This document shows positions 2,041 through 62,901 of a stretch of DNA of 64,000 nt, piece by piece. The notes below the pieces were generated by a model. The model saw only the letters and a list, made by a program, of their open reading frames with translations, made no database searches and was not told the DNA's origin. Origin of the DNA: Coriobacteriaceae bacterium (lineage in GTDB: Bacteria; Actinomycetota; Coriobacteriia; Coriobacteriales; Atopobiaceae); the NCBI GenBank assembly GCA_003862195.1, contig QOUO01000007.1:1-64000 (forward strand). The letters run 5' to 3'. Each line of letters starts with the position of its first letter. Within the stretch, counting starts at the first letter, position 1. The translations under genes and the position numbers were made by a program.

Positions 2041-2055
2041 GTCCTTCTCGCCCGC
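2041..2055 (-). repeat. Dispersed motif copy (GAGAAGGAC type)
   Basis: Reads GTCCTTCTCGCCCGC on the plus strand, 30 nt after the murI stop. It is one of the best matches to the window-wide consensus GGGCGAGAAGRACG (see findings). No gene start or hairpin is attached to this copy. Confidence 0.8.
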
Positions 2056-2941: not shown

Positions 2942-2957
2942 GCTTCGCATCACATAA

Positions 2958-2971
2958 GGGTGAGAAGAACG
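2958..2971 (+). repeat. Dispersed motif copy (GAGAAGAAC type)
   Basis: GGGTGAGAAGAACG, 17 nt after the stop of the MIP channel gene and abutting the terminator stem. A second copy in opposite orientation lies at 3029-3043, on the other side of the terminator. Confidence 0.7.
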
Positions 2972-3002
2972 AGGCGCCTCCGTTGGGGGGCGCCTCTCTT
3001 TT
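2971..3002 (+). terminator. Intrinsic terminator after the MIP channel gene
   Basis: GAGGCGCC (2971-2978) pairs with GGCGCCTC (2989-2996) and is followed by TCTTTT. Confidence 0.85.
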
Positions 3003-3028
3003 GCGTGTATGTTGCTGGTTGGCGGGCA

Positions 3029-3043
3029 GTCCTTCTCGCCCGC
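3029..3043 (-). repeat. Dispersed motif copy
   Basis: GTCCTTCTCGCCCGC between the terminator of the upstream gene and the stop codon (3051) of the convergent glycosidase gene. Confidence 0.8.
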
Positions 3044-3050
3044 GACTGGT

Positions 3051-7521: not shown

Positions 7522-8452
7522 CACGGCGCGCGCCGGCGCGGCGGAGGGCAAGCGGGGCACGCCCGTCTGGGTGTTCGAGCTGGGGCTCCTGCTCACAGCC
7601 ATCATCTGGGGCGGGTCCTTCGTGGTGCTCAAGGACACGCTCGACGCGATGACGCCCATCTGGATCATCGCGTTGCGCTTTGGCCTGGCCACCGTCGCCA
7701 TGGTCATCGTGTTCCACCGGCGGCTGGCGTGCTACCTCGACCTCTCGCACGTGGTCGCGGGTGTGGCCATCGGCCTGCCCGAGGGGCTTGGCTTCCTCAT
7801 CCAGAACGTTGGCCTCGCCGGCACCACGCCCGGCCGCAACGCCTTCCTCACGGCCACGTACTGCGTGATGGTGCCGTTTCTGGCCTGGGCCGTGGAGCGC
7901 AGGCGCCCCGGCGCCAACAACGTCGTGGCGGCCCTGTTGTGCCTCGCGGGCGTGGGCTTTTTGGCGCTTTCGGGCGAGAAGGGCTTCGGCCTCGGCGTGG
8001 GCGACCTTCTCACCCTGCTATCCGCGTTCTTCTTCGCGCTCAACATCGTGGCCGTGGGGCGCTTTGGGTCCGCGCACGATACCATGGTCATCACGACGGT
8101 CATGTTCGCCGTGAGCTTTGTGGTGTGCCTGGGCGCGGCGCTCGCGCTCGAGCCCGTGCCCGACTTCGCGGCGCTGCCGGGAAGCTTCTGGTGGTCCATG
8201 GCCTACGTGGTGGGCTGCTCCACCATGCTGGGGCTCATCCTGCAGAACGTGGGCCAGCGGCACGTGCCGCCCGCGCAGGCCGCGCTGCTGATGTCGCTCG
8301 AGAGCGTGTTTGCCGTGCTCTTCTCCATCGTGTTCTACGGGGAGCGGCTCACGCCGGCGCTGCTCGCGGGCTTCGTGCTCATCTTCCTGGCGGTCACCGT
8401 GAGCCAGTTTGGCCCGGCGATGTGGGAGCGCCTGCGGATTGGGCGAAAATGA
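7508..8452 (+). CDS. EamA/DMT-superfamily transporter, second of tandem pair
   Basis: 314-aa paralogue of the preceding transporter, with two EamA repeats and about ten membrane segments. ATG 7508 has GAGGAGG at 7494-7500, inside the end of the upstream gene, so translation is probably coupled. It shares a 46-residue block with its neighbour without any nucleotide difference. Elsewhere the two are clearly diverged (for example GLGFLIQNVGLA against SPGFLLQNLGLT). The pair could act as separate exporters or as a heterodimer; the substrate is not predictable. Confidence 0.88.
   Translation: MEGSSTARAGAAEGKRGTPVWVFELGLLLTAIIWGGSFVVLKDTLDAMTPIWIIALRFGLATVAMVIVFHRRLACYLDLSHVVAGVAIGLPEGLGFLIQNVGLAGTTPGRNAFLTATYCVMVPFLAWAVERRRPGANNVVAALLCLAGVGFLALSGEKGFGLGVGDLLTLLSAFFFALNIVAVGRFGSAHDTMVITTVMFAVSFVVCLGAALALEPVPDFAALPGSFWWSMAYVVGCSTMLGLILQNVGQRHVPPAQAALLMSLESVFAVLFSIVFYGERLTPALLAGFVLIFLAVTVSQFGPAMWERLRIGRK
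7820..7956 (+). repeat. 137-nt tract identical to 6871-7007
   Basis: Second copy of the identical tract, spaced 949 nt from the first. Confidence 0.9.
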
Positions 8453-13173: not shown

Positions 13174-13210
13174 CGAACCACCTGGCACCGGGCTGGGGCG
13201 GGGAGGCCGC

Positions 13211-13224
13211 GTCCTTCTCGCCCG
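13211..13224 (-). repeat. Dispersed motif copy
   Basis: GTCCTTCTCGCCCG, 37 nt after the VOC gene stop and shortly before a strong hairpin. Confidence 0.75.
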
Positions 13225-27961: not shown

Positions 27962-28024
27962 CGTGCTCCCATGCGTGAGTCTGCCCCTGAATGAATCCTT
28001 CCCATTATCGCACGGGCATGTCCC

Positions 28025-28040
28025 GCGGGCGAGAAGGACG
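28025..28040 (+). repeat. Dispersed motif copy
   Basis: GCGGGCGAGAAGGACG, a full consensus match, in the spacer between the helicase gene and the tRNA. Confidence 0.85.
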
Positions 28041-28127
28041 GCGGCCTTGCATGTTGATGATGCGGACAACGAGTGAGGGGGCTGCGGCTGCGATTTGTGG
28101 AGACGTCTTCACAAACGGAAGTATTTC

Positions 28128-28156
28128 TTTACAGACGGCTACCTTGTCCCTATATT
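28128..28156 (+). promoter_or_regulatory. Promoter of the initiator tRNA gene
   Basis: TTTACA (28128-28133), a 17-bp spacer and TATATT (28151-28156), about 31 nt before the tRNA. It is the best sigma-70-type promoter in the window. Confidence 0.8.
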
Positions 28157-28187
28157 TATTACTTGCGCACAGGGTGCGCCCAGACAT

Positions 28188-28264
28188 TGCGGGGTGGAGC
28201 AGTCTGGTAGCTCGCCGGGCTCATAACCCGGAGGTCGTAGGTTCAAATCCTGCCCCCGCGACCA
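28188..28264 (+). tRNA. Initiator tRNA-fMet (CAT anticodon)
   Basis: A 77-nt cloverleaf with encoded CCA. The anticodon stem-loop CCGGG-CTCATAA-CCCGG has the three G:C pairs specific to initiators, and the D stem GAGC/GCTC contains A11:T24. The T arm has GTTCAAATC. The first acceptor pair is a weak T1:G72, comparable to the C1xA72 mismatch that marks initiators elsewhere. A clear promoter lies upstream and a terminator downstream, so it is a single-gene transcript. Confidence 0.95.
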
Positions 28265-28273
28265 AATTCGCAG

Positions 28274-28305
28274 TCCCTCATCTGGTTGCCGGGTGGGGGA
28301 TTTTT
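28274..28305 (+). terminator. Intrinsic terminator of the tRNA gene
   Basis: A 12-bp stem (TCCCTCATCTGG with CCGGGTGGGGGA, some G-U pairs), loop TTG, then TTTTT. Confidence 0.85.
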
Positions 28306-28306
28306 C

Positions 28307-29167
28307 TTACCGTGCTTCTTTGTTCAACCTTTCGAGTATGGACCGAACGATCTTCTCGTCCTCAATCCGCGCAATCCCAAAGGTCTTTTTCCAGCGTCCT
28401 TGAGCGACGCCCCGACCAGATACGCCTCAGTCCCGTCCAGTATGAGGAACCGGTCGTGAAATGTATCTGTATGGCGAACTTCGAGCTTTGGGTACTGCGC
28501 GTTGAAGGTATCGACGTCCCGTTGCGTGAGGCGCGTCTTAGGGTGGGTCCAGATGGTGACCCTGACGTCCGAATGCTTCTTCGCGAGTACATTGAGGGTG
28601 CCTGTATCGACGTAGCCGTCCACGAGCACGATTTCACGTTTTGCGCGCAGCACGAAGGACGTGAGGAGCTCGAAGGCATCCCAGACCTGGCCGTCGAAAA
28701 AGACTCTCTGGATTGGTTCCTCGTGGGCGTCCATATAGTCGAAGATACGCTCGAAACGTTCATCGGTGCATTTCTGGTATTCAAGCTGCCTAAGCTCTAT
28801 GGTACTTATGCGTTCGAGCATCTGAGCATTGTCCGCAATGAAGCGGCGCATCTCGACAAATGCGTCCATAATGCGGATGCTCACCTCGATGGCCGTGTCA
28901 CTGCGTAGCACGGCGGAAAGCATCGAGACCCCCTGCTCGGTGAAGACTCGGGGCAGACTTCTCCTCCTGCCACCCCATCCATCTGCACTTGAAATCACAA
29001 ACTGTGATTTCAAGTCATCAGCCTCGTCCTTAGTCAGCCTGAAGCAGAATCTTTCTGGAAAGCGATCCGCGCACCATATAGATCATGTTGCGGATTTGAA
29101 CGTTGGGGACCTGGACTACCTCGGTATGCTTTTCGATGGCGCGCGCCTGAATACGTTCATCTGTCAT
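28307..29167 (-). pseudogene. Broken ORF6N-domain/PLD-like protein gene
   Basis: Related to phage-type ORF6N regulators fused to a C-terminal phospholipase D-like domain. ATG 29167 has GGGAGG upstream and starts MTDERIQARAIEKHTEVVQV, running to IYMVRG at about 29072. It then loses frame: the expected stretch of roughly 25-30 residues is missing, and the protein resumes in another frame as DRFPERFCFRLTKDEADD. A second lesion is in the five-A run (minus strand) at 28386-28390. Restoring one A would continue GKKTFGIARIEDEKIV to a stop at 28307-28309 instead of an unrelated tail. The middle (FTEQGVSMLSAV; TFHDRFLILD) is intact. With two lesions, a functional product is unlikely. Confidence 0.85.
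28988..29014. repeat. Palindrome 1 of the ORF6N locus
   Basis: CTTGAAATCACA-AAC-TGTGATTTCAAG, 12-bp perfect arms, inside the ORF6N coding part (encodes LKSQFVIS). Nearly the same as palindrome 3. Confidence 0.85.
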
Positions 29168-29182
29168 GGAACCCTCCCGCCT

Positions 29183-29211
29183 CCCAAACATCACGAAATG
29201 TGATGTTTGGG
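29183..29211. repeat. Palindrome 2 of the ORF6N locus
   Basis: CCCAAACATCAC-GAAAT-GTGATGTTTGGG, 12-bp perfect arms, 16 nt upstream of the ORF6N start codon: an operator or attenuator position. Confidence 0.85.
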
Positions 29212-29242
29212 AATTGTATCAACGATTGCCGGGCGTCTGCCG

Positions 29243-29269
29243 TTTGAAGTCACAAACTGTGACTTCAAA
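29243..29269. repeat. Palindrome 3 of the ORF6N locus
   Basis: TTTGAAGTCACA-AAC-TGTGACTTCAAA. It differs from palindrome 1 at two stem positions, each compensated on the other arm, with an identical loop. Confidence 0.85.
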
Positions 29270-29393
29270 GCTCTCCCCGATTGAATCACGGGCCTCTGAC
29301 CTGTCTAGATGCTAGATTGGCACCTAGGTTGGAGACCCCTTGAGGTTCCAAAATGGAATCTCGAGTCAGGTGGCCTGCCGAGCGGCAATCGAA

Positions 29394-29410
29394 CGTTCTT
29401 CTCGCCCGCG
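29394..29410 (-). repeat. Dispersed motif copy
   Basis: CGTTCTTCTCGCCCGCG, 120 nt upstream of hslO; another copy overlaps the hslO start. Confidence 0.8.
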
Positions 29411-29529
29411 TAGGCACGTGGCGTATGTGTGACGTGTGAGGCCTCAATATCAGCCAAAGGTGCGTGCCGCCGTTGGGGTATCACTCAAGCCATTGGATGC
29501 GAGCGCGACGGCGCGGAAGGCGAGGCGGC

Positions 29530-31079: not shown

Positions 31080-31118
31080 GGGCGAGAAGGACCCGAGCCC
31101 ATGGTCCAGGTCCTTCTC
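31080..31118. repeat. Inverted pair of the dispersed motif forming a hairpin
   Basis: GGGCGAGAAGGAC at 31080-31092 and its inverse GTCCTTCTC at 31110-31118. GAGAAGGACC (31084-31093) pairs perfectly with GGTCCTTCTC (31109-31118) around a 15-nt loop. It lies between two minus-strand genes, a position that fits a terminator, though no T-run is present. Confidence 0.8.
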
Positions 31119-44965: not shown

Positions 44966-44969
<4 letters not shown>

Positions 44970-46186
44970 GGCTGAGGGACCTTTGGGCCGAGACCTGGGA
45001 GGCGCTTGACGCCAACCGGGGCCGGTCGCTCCTCACGGTGCTCGGCATCGTCATAGGCATCAGCGCCGTGATCGCGATGACGGCGCTCATCGGCGGCGTG
45101 CGCCAGGGACTCATGACGCAGATGGGCCTCGACCGCTCGCGCGTGGTCAACATGGCCGTGTACGGCAGCCAGCAGATCAAGGTGGAGGACCTCGACAAGC
45201 TCCAGAAGGGCATGCCCGAGTACGAGTACATCACGGGAAGCGCGATGGGCTCGGGCAAGGTCGCGAGCGAGACCAAGAGCTCAGACGGCTCGATCACCGG
45301 CGTCGCGAGCCACTACTTCGACGTCACGGGCCAGAAGCTCGTCAAGGGCAGGCTCTTCACCACCGGCGAGGACGACTCCGCCTCCACGGTCGTGATACTC
45401 GACCAGTCGAGCGCACGCAACCTCTTTGGCAAGGGCAAGGCCCTGGGGGAGAAGGTCCGCATCCAGGGCATCGAGTACACCGTGGTGGGCATCCTCGAGG
45501 ACGGCCAGATGAGCGACCCCAAGAGCGTGAACGCCTACGTGCCGCTCCACACCTGCGTCCAGAGGGTGACCGGCTACGACAACGTGGACACCGTGGCGGG
45601 CATGGTGCGCGAGGGCGAGGACATCGACTCCGCGGTCCGGCAGACCAAGGAGTACCTCACCTCGTACTACCACCTCACGGGGGAGGACGCGGACAACCTC
45701 TACGTATCGTCCACCAAGTCCCTGATCGACAGCTTCAACACCGTCATGTTCGGCTTCCAGCTGCTCATGACCTCCGTCGCGTCGATATCGCTCGTGGTGG
45801 GCGGCATCGGCATCATGAACATGATGCTCACCAACGTGACGGAGCGCATCCGCGAGATCGGCCTGCGCAAGGCCCTGGGCGCGAGGCGGTCGGACATCAC
45901 GCGGCAGTTCCTGCTCGAGTCCGTCTTCCTCACGCTCGCGGGCGGCGCCATCGGCATCGTGCTGGGCTACGTGGGCGCGTTCGCGCTCGCCGGTGTGGCC
46001 ACGAGTGTGCTGTCCTCCGCCGGCGGAAGCGACGGCGGGCTCTCGCTCACGATCACGCCCGTGATCGAGCCCATGGCCGTGCTCGTGGCGACGGGCATCT
46101 GCGTGCTCATCGGCGTCGTGTTTGGCTACTACCCCGCGCGCCGCGCCGCGCGGCTCGACCCGGTTGAGTCGCTGCACTACCAGTAG
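44966..46186 (+). CDS. MacB-type ABC exporter permease (FtsX-like)
   Basis: 406-aa membrane protein with the classical MacB plan: one N-terminal helix (LLTVLGIVIGISAVIAM), a large extracellular MacB periplasmic-core domain, then three C-terminal helices in an FtsX domain (MTSVASISLVVGGIGIMNMM; REIGLRKALGARRSDI). Substrates of such exporters include peptides and antibiotics; here unknown. The start overlaps the ATPase stop. A motif-pair hairpin lies 49 nt downstream. Confidence 0.92.
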
Positions 46187-46234: not shown

Positions 46235-46268
46235 GAGAAGGACGCGGCCACGTGGTCGCGTCCTTCTC
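46235..46268. repeat. Near-perfect palindrome built from two inverted dispersed motifs
   Basis: GAGAAGGACGCG (46235-46246) and CGCGTCCTTCTC (46257-46268) flank GCCACGTGGT. The whole 34 nt is self-complementary apart from one G-T type pair. It sits between the convergent permease and nagB genes, where a terminator is expected, but has no T-run. Confidence 0.88.
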
Positions 46269-46297: not shown

Positions 46298-47032
46298 CTA
46301 GTCCCTGGGGCACTTGGAGAGTGCCGCCTCGTCCGCGATGACCGTGCAGTTGGTGTGCAGCTGCAGGATGGACGCGGGGCACTGCGGGTCTACGGGGCCG
46401 TAGCACATGCGATAGACGGCGTCGGCCTTCTCCTCGCCGTTGGCCACCACGAGGATGGAGCGCGCGTACATGATGGTCTGCACGCCCATGGTGTAGGCCT
46501 GGCGCGGCACCTGGTCCTCGCTGTCGAAGAGGCGGCTGTTCGCCTTGATCGTGCTCTCGGTCAGGTTGACCATGTGCGTGCCCTTGCTGAAGTAGGGGCC
46601 AGGCTCGTTGAAGCCGATGTGGCCGTTGCGGCCGATGCCCAGGAGCTGCAGGTCGGGGTAGCCGGCCTCCGCCACGATGCGGTCGTAGTCCCTGCACGCG
46701 GCCTCGGCGTCGGGGTTGGAGCCGTCGGGAACGTGGGTGTTCGCGAGGTTGATGTTGATGTGGTCGAAGAAGTTGGTGCGCATGAAGTAGTGGTAGCTCT
46801 GGACGTCCTCGTGGCTGAGGCCGCGGTACTCGTCCAGGTTGTACGTGGACACCTGGCTAAAGTCCACGTCGCCCTTGGCGCACCACGCCGCGAGCTGCTT
46901 GTACGTGCCGATGGGCGTGGTGCCCGTGGCGAGCCCGAGCACGGACGTGGGCTTGAGGATCACCTGCGCAGAAATGACGTTGGCGGCCTTGCGGCTCATG
47001 TCCTGGTAGTCCACCGTGCGAATGATCCTCAT
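46298..47032 (-). CDS. nagB: Glucosamine-6-phosphate deaminase
   Basis: 244-aa cytoplasmic enzyme converting glucosamine-6-phosphate to fructose-6-phosphate and ammonia. Motifs: LGLATGTTPIGTYK (phosphate loop), YNLDEYRGL (catalytic Asp) and GIGRNGHIGFNEP (His with the Asn form found in Firmicutes-type enzymes). ATG 47032 (MRIIRTVDYQDMS) has AAGGGA upstream. Divergent from a NagR-type regulator with an operator between them, indicating control by amino-sugar phosphate. Confidence 0.94.
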   Translation of the reverse strand: MRIIRTVDYQDMSRKAANVISAQVILKPTSVLGLATGTTPIGTYKQLAAWCAKGDVDFSQVSTYNLDEYRGLSHEDVQSYHYFMRTNFFDHININLANTHVPDGSNPDAEAACRDYDRIVAEAGYPDLQLLGIGRNGHIGFNEPGPYFSKGTHMVNLTESTIKANSRLFDSEDQVPRQAYTMGVQTIMYARSILVVANGEEKADAVYRMCYGPVDPQCPASILQLHTNCTVIADEAALSKCPRD

Positions 47033-61839: not shown

Positions 61840-62735
61840 CCGCACGCCCTGGCCGCACCAACAGGTCCTCCCGCCGCGCGCCGCCTCCCATGGCGCGCGG
61901 CGAAACCCTCATAGCGCTCGCCCAGCCTCTCGTCCTCAGCGACGAGCTGGGCGAGCGTTCGTGCGACGCCCGACTCCGTGTTGGACCACGCGCACACGTG
62001 TGTGGCGGCGCGCTTGACGGCGTCCTCCGCGTGCGGCATCACGTAGGACTGGCCCACGGCGCCCAGCATGTCCAGGTCGTTGGGGCCGTCGCCAAAGGCC
62101 ACGGCGTCGGCGGGGTCCACGCCAAAGTGCCGGCACAGCAGCCTCACGGCGTGGCTCTTGCTCACGCCCTTGGCCATGACCTCGCACAGGATGGGGCTGC
62201 TGCGCACGACGGTGAGGTTGGGGTAGCGCGCGGACACGGTGGCCTCTGCGGAAAGGATCGCGTCCGGCTCGCCCATGAGCAGGAACTTGTGGATGCCGCG
62301 CTCGCCAAAGGTGCCCGCCAGGTCGCGACTCTGGGTGGCCTGGACCTCCACGAAGTACTCCTCCTGCGTGACGGCGGGGTCGCTTGCGTCGTCCACGATC
62401 CACTTGTCGAACCCGTACGTGCCCGTCACTACGCCGGGCAGGTCGTGCTCGAGGTACGCCTTGACCTCGAGCGCGACGTCGAGCGGGATGGTCTTGCTGT
62501 AGAGCTCGTCGCCCTTCTCGTCCAGCACGTACGCGCCCGAGAACGCGGCGATGGGGCCCGTGATGCCCAGGTCGCGCTGCAGGGCGCGGATGCCCCCGGG
62601 CAGGCGGCCGGACACCAGGCAGAGGGGGATGTGCTGCGTCACGCACTGCAGGATGGGCGCGTCGCTGGGGATGGCGTGGTGCTCGTCGTCCGTGATGGTC
62701 AGGTCCACGTCGCTAAAGGCGATCTTGATGCTCAT
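61695..62735 (-). CDS. Cof-type HAD phosphatase, apparently lacking its normal stop
   Basis: HAD-superfamily sugar-phosphate phosphatase, cap class IIB. Motif I is FSDVDLTITDD, motif II CLVSGR, Lys in KGVSKSHAV and motif IV GDGPNDLDML. ATG 62735 (MSIKIAFSD) has GGAAGGAG upstream. The family-like sequence ends near LVAEDERLGE, about nt 61920, yet the frame stays open to 61695. It passes through a strong hairpin and 145 nt antisense to the ribokinase gene, adding roughly 75 residues of unlikely sequence. A single-base shift at CTATGAGG (about 61910) would give an immediate TGA. Confidence 0.82.
   Translation of the reverse strand: MSIKIAFSDVDLTITDDEHHAIPSDAPILQCVTQHIPLCLVSGRLPGGIRALQRDLGITGPIAAFSGAYVLDEKGDELYSKTIPLDVALEVKAYLEHDLPGVVTGTYGFDKWIVDDASDPAVTQEEYFVEVQATQSRDLAGTFGERGIHKFLLMGEPDAILSAEATVSARYPNLTVVRSSPILCEVMAKGVSKSHAVRLLCRHFGVDPADAVAFGDGPNDLDMLGAVGQSYVMPHAEDAVKRAATHVCAWSNTESGVARTLAQLVAEDERLGERYEGFAARHGRRRAAGGPVGAARACGYSLAASTSSIVGMEGTAPARVTAMAEARAARSSASGTGLPTLMAHTK
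61873..61901. terminator. Hairpin between the ribokinase gene and the HAD gene
   Basis: GCCGCGCGCC (61873-61882) and GGCGCGCGGC (61892-61901), perfect 10-bp stem, 9-nt loop, no T-run. Placed where a bidirectional terminator is expected. Confidence 0.65.
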
Positions 62736-62817
62736 GGGTGCTCCTTCCGCTCGCCCTGTCTGGCCACAGCATGGCACGACGCGGCCCGCGCGCGCCGTAC
62801 GTCGCGAATTTGCCCCA

Positions 62818-62841
62818 AATGTATGGTAGGTATGATACATT
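62818..62841. promoter_or_regulatory. Palindrome over the -10 of the GntR gene
   Basis: AATGTAT (62818-62824), 10 nt, ATACATT (62835-62841). TATGAT (62831-62836) inside it is a possible -10, so the regulator may repress itself. Confidence 0.6.
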
Positions 62842-62901
62842 AAGGACACACGCGGCGGCATCGGTCGGCGCGTGGCAAGGGGCAAGACGGGGGAGAAGAA
62901 C

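Follow-up and report, generated by a model that had tools for sequence, protein, structure and literature searches.

The Hairpin between the Permease and nagB Genes

In the window, as we call the whole 64,000-nucleotide stretch of DNA analysed here, a gene for a MacB/FtsX-type ABC exporter permease and nagB, the gene for glucosamine-6-phosphate deaminase, converge on a gap of 111 nt that contains a 34-nt near-perfect palindrome (Table 1). Its arms are 17 nt long, 94% complementary and without a gap between them, 16 of the 17 arm positions being paired; the 12-mer GAGAAGGACGCG opens the left arm, and its exact inverse closes the right one beyond a 10-nt centre. The sequence-only reading had claimed that two motif copies form such a palindrome between these convergent genes, and both parts of the claim held. 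It had also taken the 12-mer for the motif itself, which has to be corrected: the 12-mer is a slice, the 3' part of one common form, of a longer motif, GGGCGAGAAGNNC, which extends upstream. At 46235–46268 both arms retain the GAGAAGGAC part of this motif and have lost most of its GGGC (Table 1), and they are therefore regarded as copies that have worn down to the part that forms the hairpin.

The RNA fold of the element gave −30.8 kcal/mol (z −6.5), a value equalled by none of 200 shuffles, and folds that included the flanks gave −40.8 and −35.7 on the respective strands, so that the stability of the hairpin is shown. A GC-rich hairpin soon after the stop codon, as expected of an intrinsic terminator, is found here on both sides (at 48 and 29 nt), whereas the T-run that should directly follow the stem is not: the tails GTCTGCGT and CTTTAGTC hold three and four T per eight bases, by strand. 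The absence of a T-run had been noted before and is confirmed as a weak T run; the accompanying doubt about the stop function stands as well, since sequence alone can show neither a transcription stop nor DNA uptake. A scan for consensus promoters and terminators did not list this hairpin, and a comparison of the element with Rfam returned sub-threshold chance matches only. In our view, the element at 46235–46268 likely consists of two inverted copies of a new uptake-type motif and probably works as a bidirectional terminator, with termination remaining an inference. Elsewhere in the window, two stretches of 1.6 and 1.0 kb (27962–29529 and 61840–62871) contain no called gene, the former with two perfect 13-nt inverted repeats (28987–29015 and 29182–29212).

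Table 1. Hairpin, flanking genes and motif copies, with their positions in the window.
Feature	Position	Strand	Remarks
MacB/FtsX-type ABC exporter permease	44966..46186	+	stop 48 nt upstream of hairpin
Inverted motif pair (hairpin) GAGAAGGACGCGGCCAC-GTGGTCGCGTCCTTCTC	46235..46268	.	probable bidirectional terminator
Left motif arm	46235..46246	+	5' part of motif lost: AAAG replaces GGGC
Right motif arm	46257..46268	-	AGAC replaces GGGC
nagB, glucosamine-6-phosphate deaminase	46298..47026	-	ends 29 nt from hairpin; TIGR00502, 276 bits, over cut-off
Second inverted GAGAAGGAC/GTCCTTCTC pair	31084..31118	.	3' region of minus-strand gene
Single motif copy GGGCGAGAAGGACGCG between convergent genes	13208..13219	-	plus strand reads CGCGTCCTTCTCGCCC, shortly past plus-strand gene end
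Exact GGGCGAGAAGNNC copies, plus strand (24 on both strands), starts	7972 (7972..7984), 14268, 28027, 29532, 31080, 42745, 44095, 50859, 54945, 61551	+	
Exact GGGCGAGAAGNNC copies, minus strand, leftmost positions	2041 (2041..2053), 3029, 13211, 18087, 29395, 31166, 31983, 35227, 38467, 40776, 49399, 59528, 61320, 63715	-	

A Highly Iterated Genome Word

Word statistics were taken from 464 kb sampled regardless of the motif, with expectations from a fourth-order Markov model. The most over-represented 10-mer in this sample was GGGCGAGAAG, with 162 copies against 11.1 expected (z 45), and the remaining top 10-mers were mostly shifts or variants of it. Genome-wide it occurs 800 times (406 on the plus and 394 on the minus strand), compared with 22 copies of the reversed control, while the 2.42-Mb genome has 114 copies of the 12-mer GAGAAGGACGCG and four of its reversed control. 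Hundreds to thousands of copies of one dominant over-represented word are what an uptake sequence should present, and this iteration is shown. Equally well shown is the conservation of a C at +12, two bases past GGGCGAGAAG, in 161 of the 162 copies; as the next base is G in 62% of them, the motif can be written GGGCGAGAAGNNCG, with A or G favoured at both free positions. Its 13-letter form GGGCGAGAAGNNC commonly reads GGGCGAGAAGRRCG. Single changes at motif positions 5–10 are mostly near background, and some are tolerated at positions 2–4. A free motif search by EM was set aside because it drifted towards the periodicity of codons.

Methylation or restriction offers another way to keep a word iterated: a DNA methyltransferase or a restriction system could maintain it, as has been proposed for HIP1, and the asymmetric, gapped form of CGAGAAG-N2-C speaks for this. 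HIPs track methyltransferases (PMC4390886), and cyanobacterial HIP1, like the present motif, is the most over-represented word of its genome and lies in both coding and non-coding DNA. However, HIPs are palindromic 6–8-mers, HIP1 itself being an 8-mer tied to methyltransferases, whereas the present motif is asymmetric, conserved over 13 bp and arranged in oriented pairs at gene ends. A further argument against is that the motif core is common to many genera; restriction specificities usually differ between strains. We regard this explanation as unlikely.

Distribution over Genes, Strands and the Chromosome

The 162 sampled copies comprise 122 in coding DNA (0.30/kb) and 40 between genes (0.73/kb). 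They occur in all six combinations of frame and strand as well as in intergenic DNA, nearly all with the C at +12, and 84 share one frame, which agrees with the pattern expected of an uptake sequence, namely occurrence in and between genes, preference for one frame and intergenic enrichment. Forward coding copies mostly encode Gly-Glu-Lys, and 87 were observed where 47 remained after synonymous shuffling; copies in reverse orientation numbered 35 against 3.1, an 11-fold excess. The amino-acid sequence and codon choice thus explain the forward copies in part and do not explain the reverse ones. Several coding copies of the 12-mer sit within low-complexity linkers, and an origin of the 12-mer in codon usage was rejected as a full explanation, since permutations of the EKDA codons occur 0–3 times in 345 kb against about seven for the motif (sampling-corrected).

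It might be argued that the motif is a terminator family only, in which intrinsic terminators have CGTCCTTCTCGCCC as their tail or stem and codon usage gives rise to the coding copies. In support of this, intergenic copies of the 12-mer lie mainly in the CGTCCTTCTCGCCC orientation within about 120 nt past gene ends, 18 of 19 inverted pairs are found at gene ends, and Gly-Glu-Lys with preferred codons accounts for some of the forward copies in coding DNA (47 of 87). Against it, 75% of the copies are coding, the C at +12 is kept in every frame and on both strands, reverse coding copies exceed their synonymous null as given above, and 11 of the 40 intergenic copies lie in divergent regions. A pure terminator-tail motif is refuted as the whole story by the coding excess and the copies in all frames, and we hold it to be very unlikely.

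Both strands carry the motif in nearly equal numbers (see above), without leading-strand bias here or in a congener (G001), as an uptake sequence requires. By the sign of the GC skew, no replication polarity was seen in the source genome (86:76) or in G001 (56:47); nor was there a positive correlation between motif and GC skew. Spacing was random (CV 0.98–1.00). The spread over both strands and all frames and the lack of replication polarity are shown, and they bear on a further alternative, in which the motif serves chromosome organisation, recombination or segregation as a binding site (Chi-like, KOPS/SRS-like or for a nucleoid protein). The high copy number and genome-wide spread would suit such a site, as would the likeness of the GAGAAGG of the motif to GAGAAGGG, which is the SpoIIIE recognition sequence of B. 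subtilis. KOPS and the B. subtilis SRS share these letters and the genome-wide occurrence with the present motif; they are strongly replichore-polarised, and it is not, so that identity with a polar sequence of this kind was rejected. The random spacing, the asymmetric 13-bp site, the genus-level variants and the +- pairing at gene ends also speak against a chromosome-organising role, which we think improbable.

Inverted Pairs at Gene Ends

Pairs of the form GAGAAGGACN{0,30}GTCCTTCTC occur 19 times in the genome and not at all in the reversed control. With strands placed randomly, 2.3 would be expected (P ~6e-12), an expectation that rests on the single-copy density extrapolated from 464 kb. 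The sequence-only reading would have been refuted by inverted pairs no more frequent than this density predicts; the pairs exceed it, and the refutation fails. Of the 19 exact pairs, 18 fall in 3'-end regions (nine in gaps where genes converge), one lies inside a gene and none between divergent genes; these positions are shown, and they support the likeness, claimed earlier, to the inverted uptake sequences at the terminators of Neisseria and Pasteurellaceae. The 464-kb sample contains eight +- pairs (0.44 expected) and no -+ pair; within 45 nt, +- pairs in regions past gene ends number eight here and nine in G001, while 3'-end regions of both species lack -+ pairs, and divergent regions in this sample and in the congener lack +- pairs. 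Inverted +- pairs as hairpins at gene 3' ends are a further trait of uptake sequences that is met. The same pair pattern was described in Neisseria by Kingsford et al. 2007 (PMC1852404), who argued for paired uptake sequences kept as terminators. The inner stems vary between pairs and are yet mostly complementary, as expected of RNA hairpins rather than of copies of one repeat.

T is only mildly enriched in the tails behind the paired hairpins (about 2.6 in eight bases), and it remains possible that the hairpins do not terminate, and instead protect mRNA 3' ends or are passive relics of two uptake motifs. The weak T tail favours this, as does the point that the missing -+ pairs in 3' regions indicate selection for the pairing without revealing which RNA function is selected. 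Against it stand the enrichment exactly at gene ends, the variable but complementary inner stems and the T-run of a counterpart in Olsenella sp. An270. A separate recurrent tail, consisting of a hairpin and CTTTTGCG, lies upstream of some CGTCCTTCTCGCCC copies past gene ends (window 2942–3050; L028; L046:1682–1780) and is possibly the ordinary terminator type of this genome.

Conservation and Dialect-like Variants in Related Genera

Conservation of the motif between species, and its variation between genera, are shown. GGGCGAGAAG occurs 577 and 589 times in congeners and 387–561 times in one nearby genus; elsewhere in the family several genera show moderate enrichment, and the other families lie mostly close to background. 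The C at +12 is present in 555 of the 577 copies of one congener. Among sites aligned with G001, 11 of 30 were fully conserved compared with 20 of 180 offset control windows (P 0.001), and several differ solely at the two free positions (NN). De novo word counts in further genera of the family yielded variants with the same core and C at +12, namely TGGCGAGAAGNNC (in g15), TGCCGAGAA(G/A)NCC (g24) and NGGCGAGAAGNNC (g4 and g17), and the variants at the level of the family retain CGAGAAG together with this C. The dialects with a shared core that uptake sequences form among related genera are therefore present, with GGG-, TGG-, NGG- and TGC- as 5' parts before the core CGAGAAGNNC. The dialect comparison rests on samples of 60–400 kb per genome, with small counts in several genera, and the partial samples of g18 and g26 gave no clear motif form. 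In another relative (G026, L295–L298), the word counts are dominated by about 31 near-identical repeats that contain TTGACTGGTAATCAAAC and form a CRISPR-like array.

The best named matches of NagB are from Collinsella (82%) and Olsenella sp. An270 (80%), and the NagB matches place the source among the coriobacteria. The 3' end of nagB in An270 carries a pair of full motifs, GGGGCGAGAAG-CGCGGT-CTTCTCGCCCC, with TTTTT behind it, and a second full-motif pair of this type comes from an uncultured Olsenella; in congener G001, no pair was found at the 3' end of nagB, where another reading frame directly adjoins. As An270 has the motif and the Collinsella loci examined do not, the source is inferred to belong to the Olsenella group. 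In G001, a stretch of about 24 kb (165.5–189.1 kb; L151:5499 to L152:9110) is the longest sampled without an exact motif copy, and its genes, encoding shell proteins, a glycyl-radical enzyme and an activase, resemble a microcompartment locus of the choline/ethanolamine (choline-utilisation) type. G001 windows below 62% GC carry fewer copies. Judged informally, the pattern fits recently acquired DNA, and the stretch may be a horizontally acquired island.

Competence Machinery

The genome encodes a ComEA (SLBB + HHH)-ComEC operon, DprA and a Tad/Flp locus, which satisfies the expectation that the bearer of an uptake sequence possesses natural transformation machinery. Many bacteria for which competence is not known have ComEA, ComEC, DprA and Tad genes as well. 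The sole T2SSE ATPase match in the genome lies within the Tad/Flp locus, and no canonical pilus of the type IV or ComG sort, such as bears ComP in Neisseria, was found. An uptake sequence would further be expected to come with a type IV pilus that has a motif-binding minor pilin (ComP/ComN), where this genome offered only the Tad/Flp locus. ComEC and T2SSF are near-universal across the family and the order, motif-poor genera included, so the machinery does not track the motif. The Tad/Flp locus (L313:6501–15502) looks complete, is the only candidate pilus found in the genome and contains a small Flp-like pilin (L313:11562–11765) and further pilin-like genes. In the ComEA-ComEC operon (L314:5633–8732), the linker of ComEA reads AGEKGDSGDSGDS, residues which elsewhere are encoded by motif copies.

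Micrococcus luteus offers a parallel, being an actinobacterium that transforms via ComEA/ComEC and Tad pili without ComG (PMC6370729), but the relevant sections of that paper describe no uptake sequence for it.

A Putative Uptake-Sequence System

Published uptake sequences are those of Neisseriaceae and Pasteurellaceae (PMC5031613). The Neisseria DUS (ATGCCGTCTGAA) resembles the present motif as an asymmetric 10–13-bp word in hundreds of copies on both strands, in coding and non-coding DNA, with +- inverted pairs at terminators and genus variants around a common core (PMC3630211, PMC1852404). In contrast, the present motif is unrelated in sequence, belongs to Actinomycetota and not to Pseudomonadota, has fewer copies, and is found in a genome with Tad/Flp only and no type IV pilus found, where uptake is inferred. 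The Pasteurellaceae USS (AAGTGCGGT) is similar in its hundreds of copies over genes and gaps, its preferred reading-frame orientation (PMC2346458), its copies in terminators and its extended motif, whereas the motif described here is gapped and GC-rich, with a near-invariant C past two free positions and no AT-rich flanks.

The uptake-sequence signature is met on each distributional point that can be tested by sequence, while receptor, uptake and termination have not been shown. We lean towards the view that this member of the Actinomycetota has an uptake-sequence system and uses the inverted copies as terminators, with uptake specificity, receptor and termination all inferred. Under this proposal, GGGCGAGAAGNNC would be a DNA-uptake-sequence-like motif, and the competence machinery (Tad/Flp pilus, ComEA, ComEC) would display a receptor on the cell surface that favours DNA bearing it. 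Recombination of DNA imported from kin would then spread and maintain copies chromosome-wide. With the motif abundant on both strands, two facing copies past a gene would make a GC-rich hairpin, and such +- pairs may have been retained as transcription terminators, the pair at 46235–46268 being one of them, a 15–17-bp hairpin predicted to serve the permease and nagB transcripts. Against the uptake reading count the lack of transformation data and of a known receptor, a number of exact copies (800) below that of Neisseria, and the weak T tails.

Under a bolder version, on which we are evenly divided, an uptake-sequence system evolved independently for a third time, in Gram-positive Actinomycetota of the gut, namely the Olsenella group together with its family; the genus dialects would centre on CGAGAAGNNC, and the receptor would reside on a Tad/Flp-type pilus or ComEA and not on a type IV pilus. 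A search of the open-access literature found no such motif reported for Coriobacteriia/Actinobacteria, Olsenella, Atopobium or Collinsella, and in this literature the recognition of self-DNA by uptake sequences is described solely for two proteobacterial families. If true, such convergence, in monoderm bacteria of the gut, would mean that molecular drive of this kind recurs, and the family would provide a natural experiment on the evolution of dialects. The little-studied gut Coriobacteriia would, moreover, be predicted to be naturally transformable by donor DNA that contains the right word, and their laboratory genetics would thereby become practicable.
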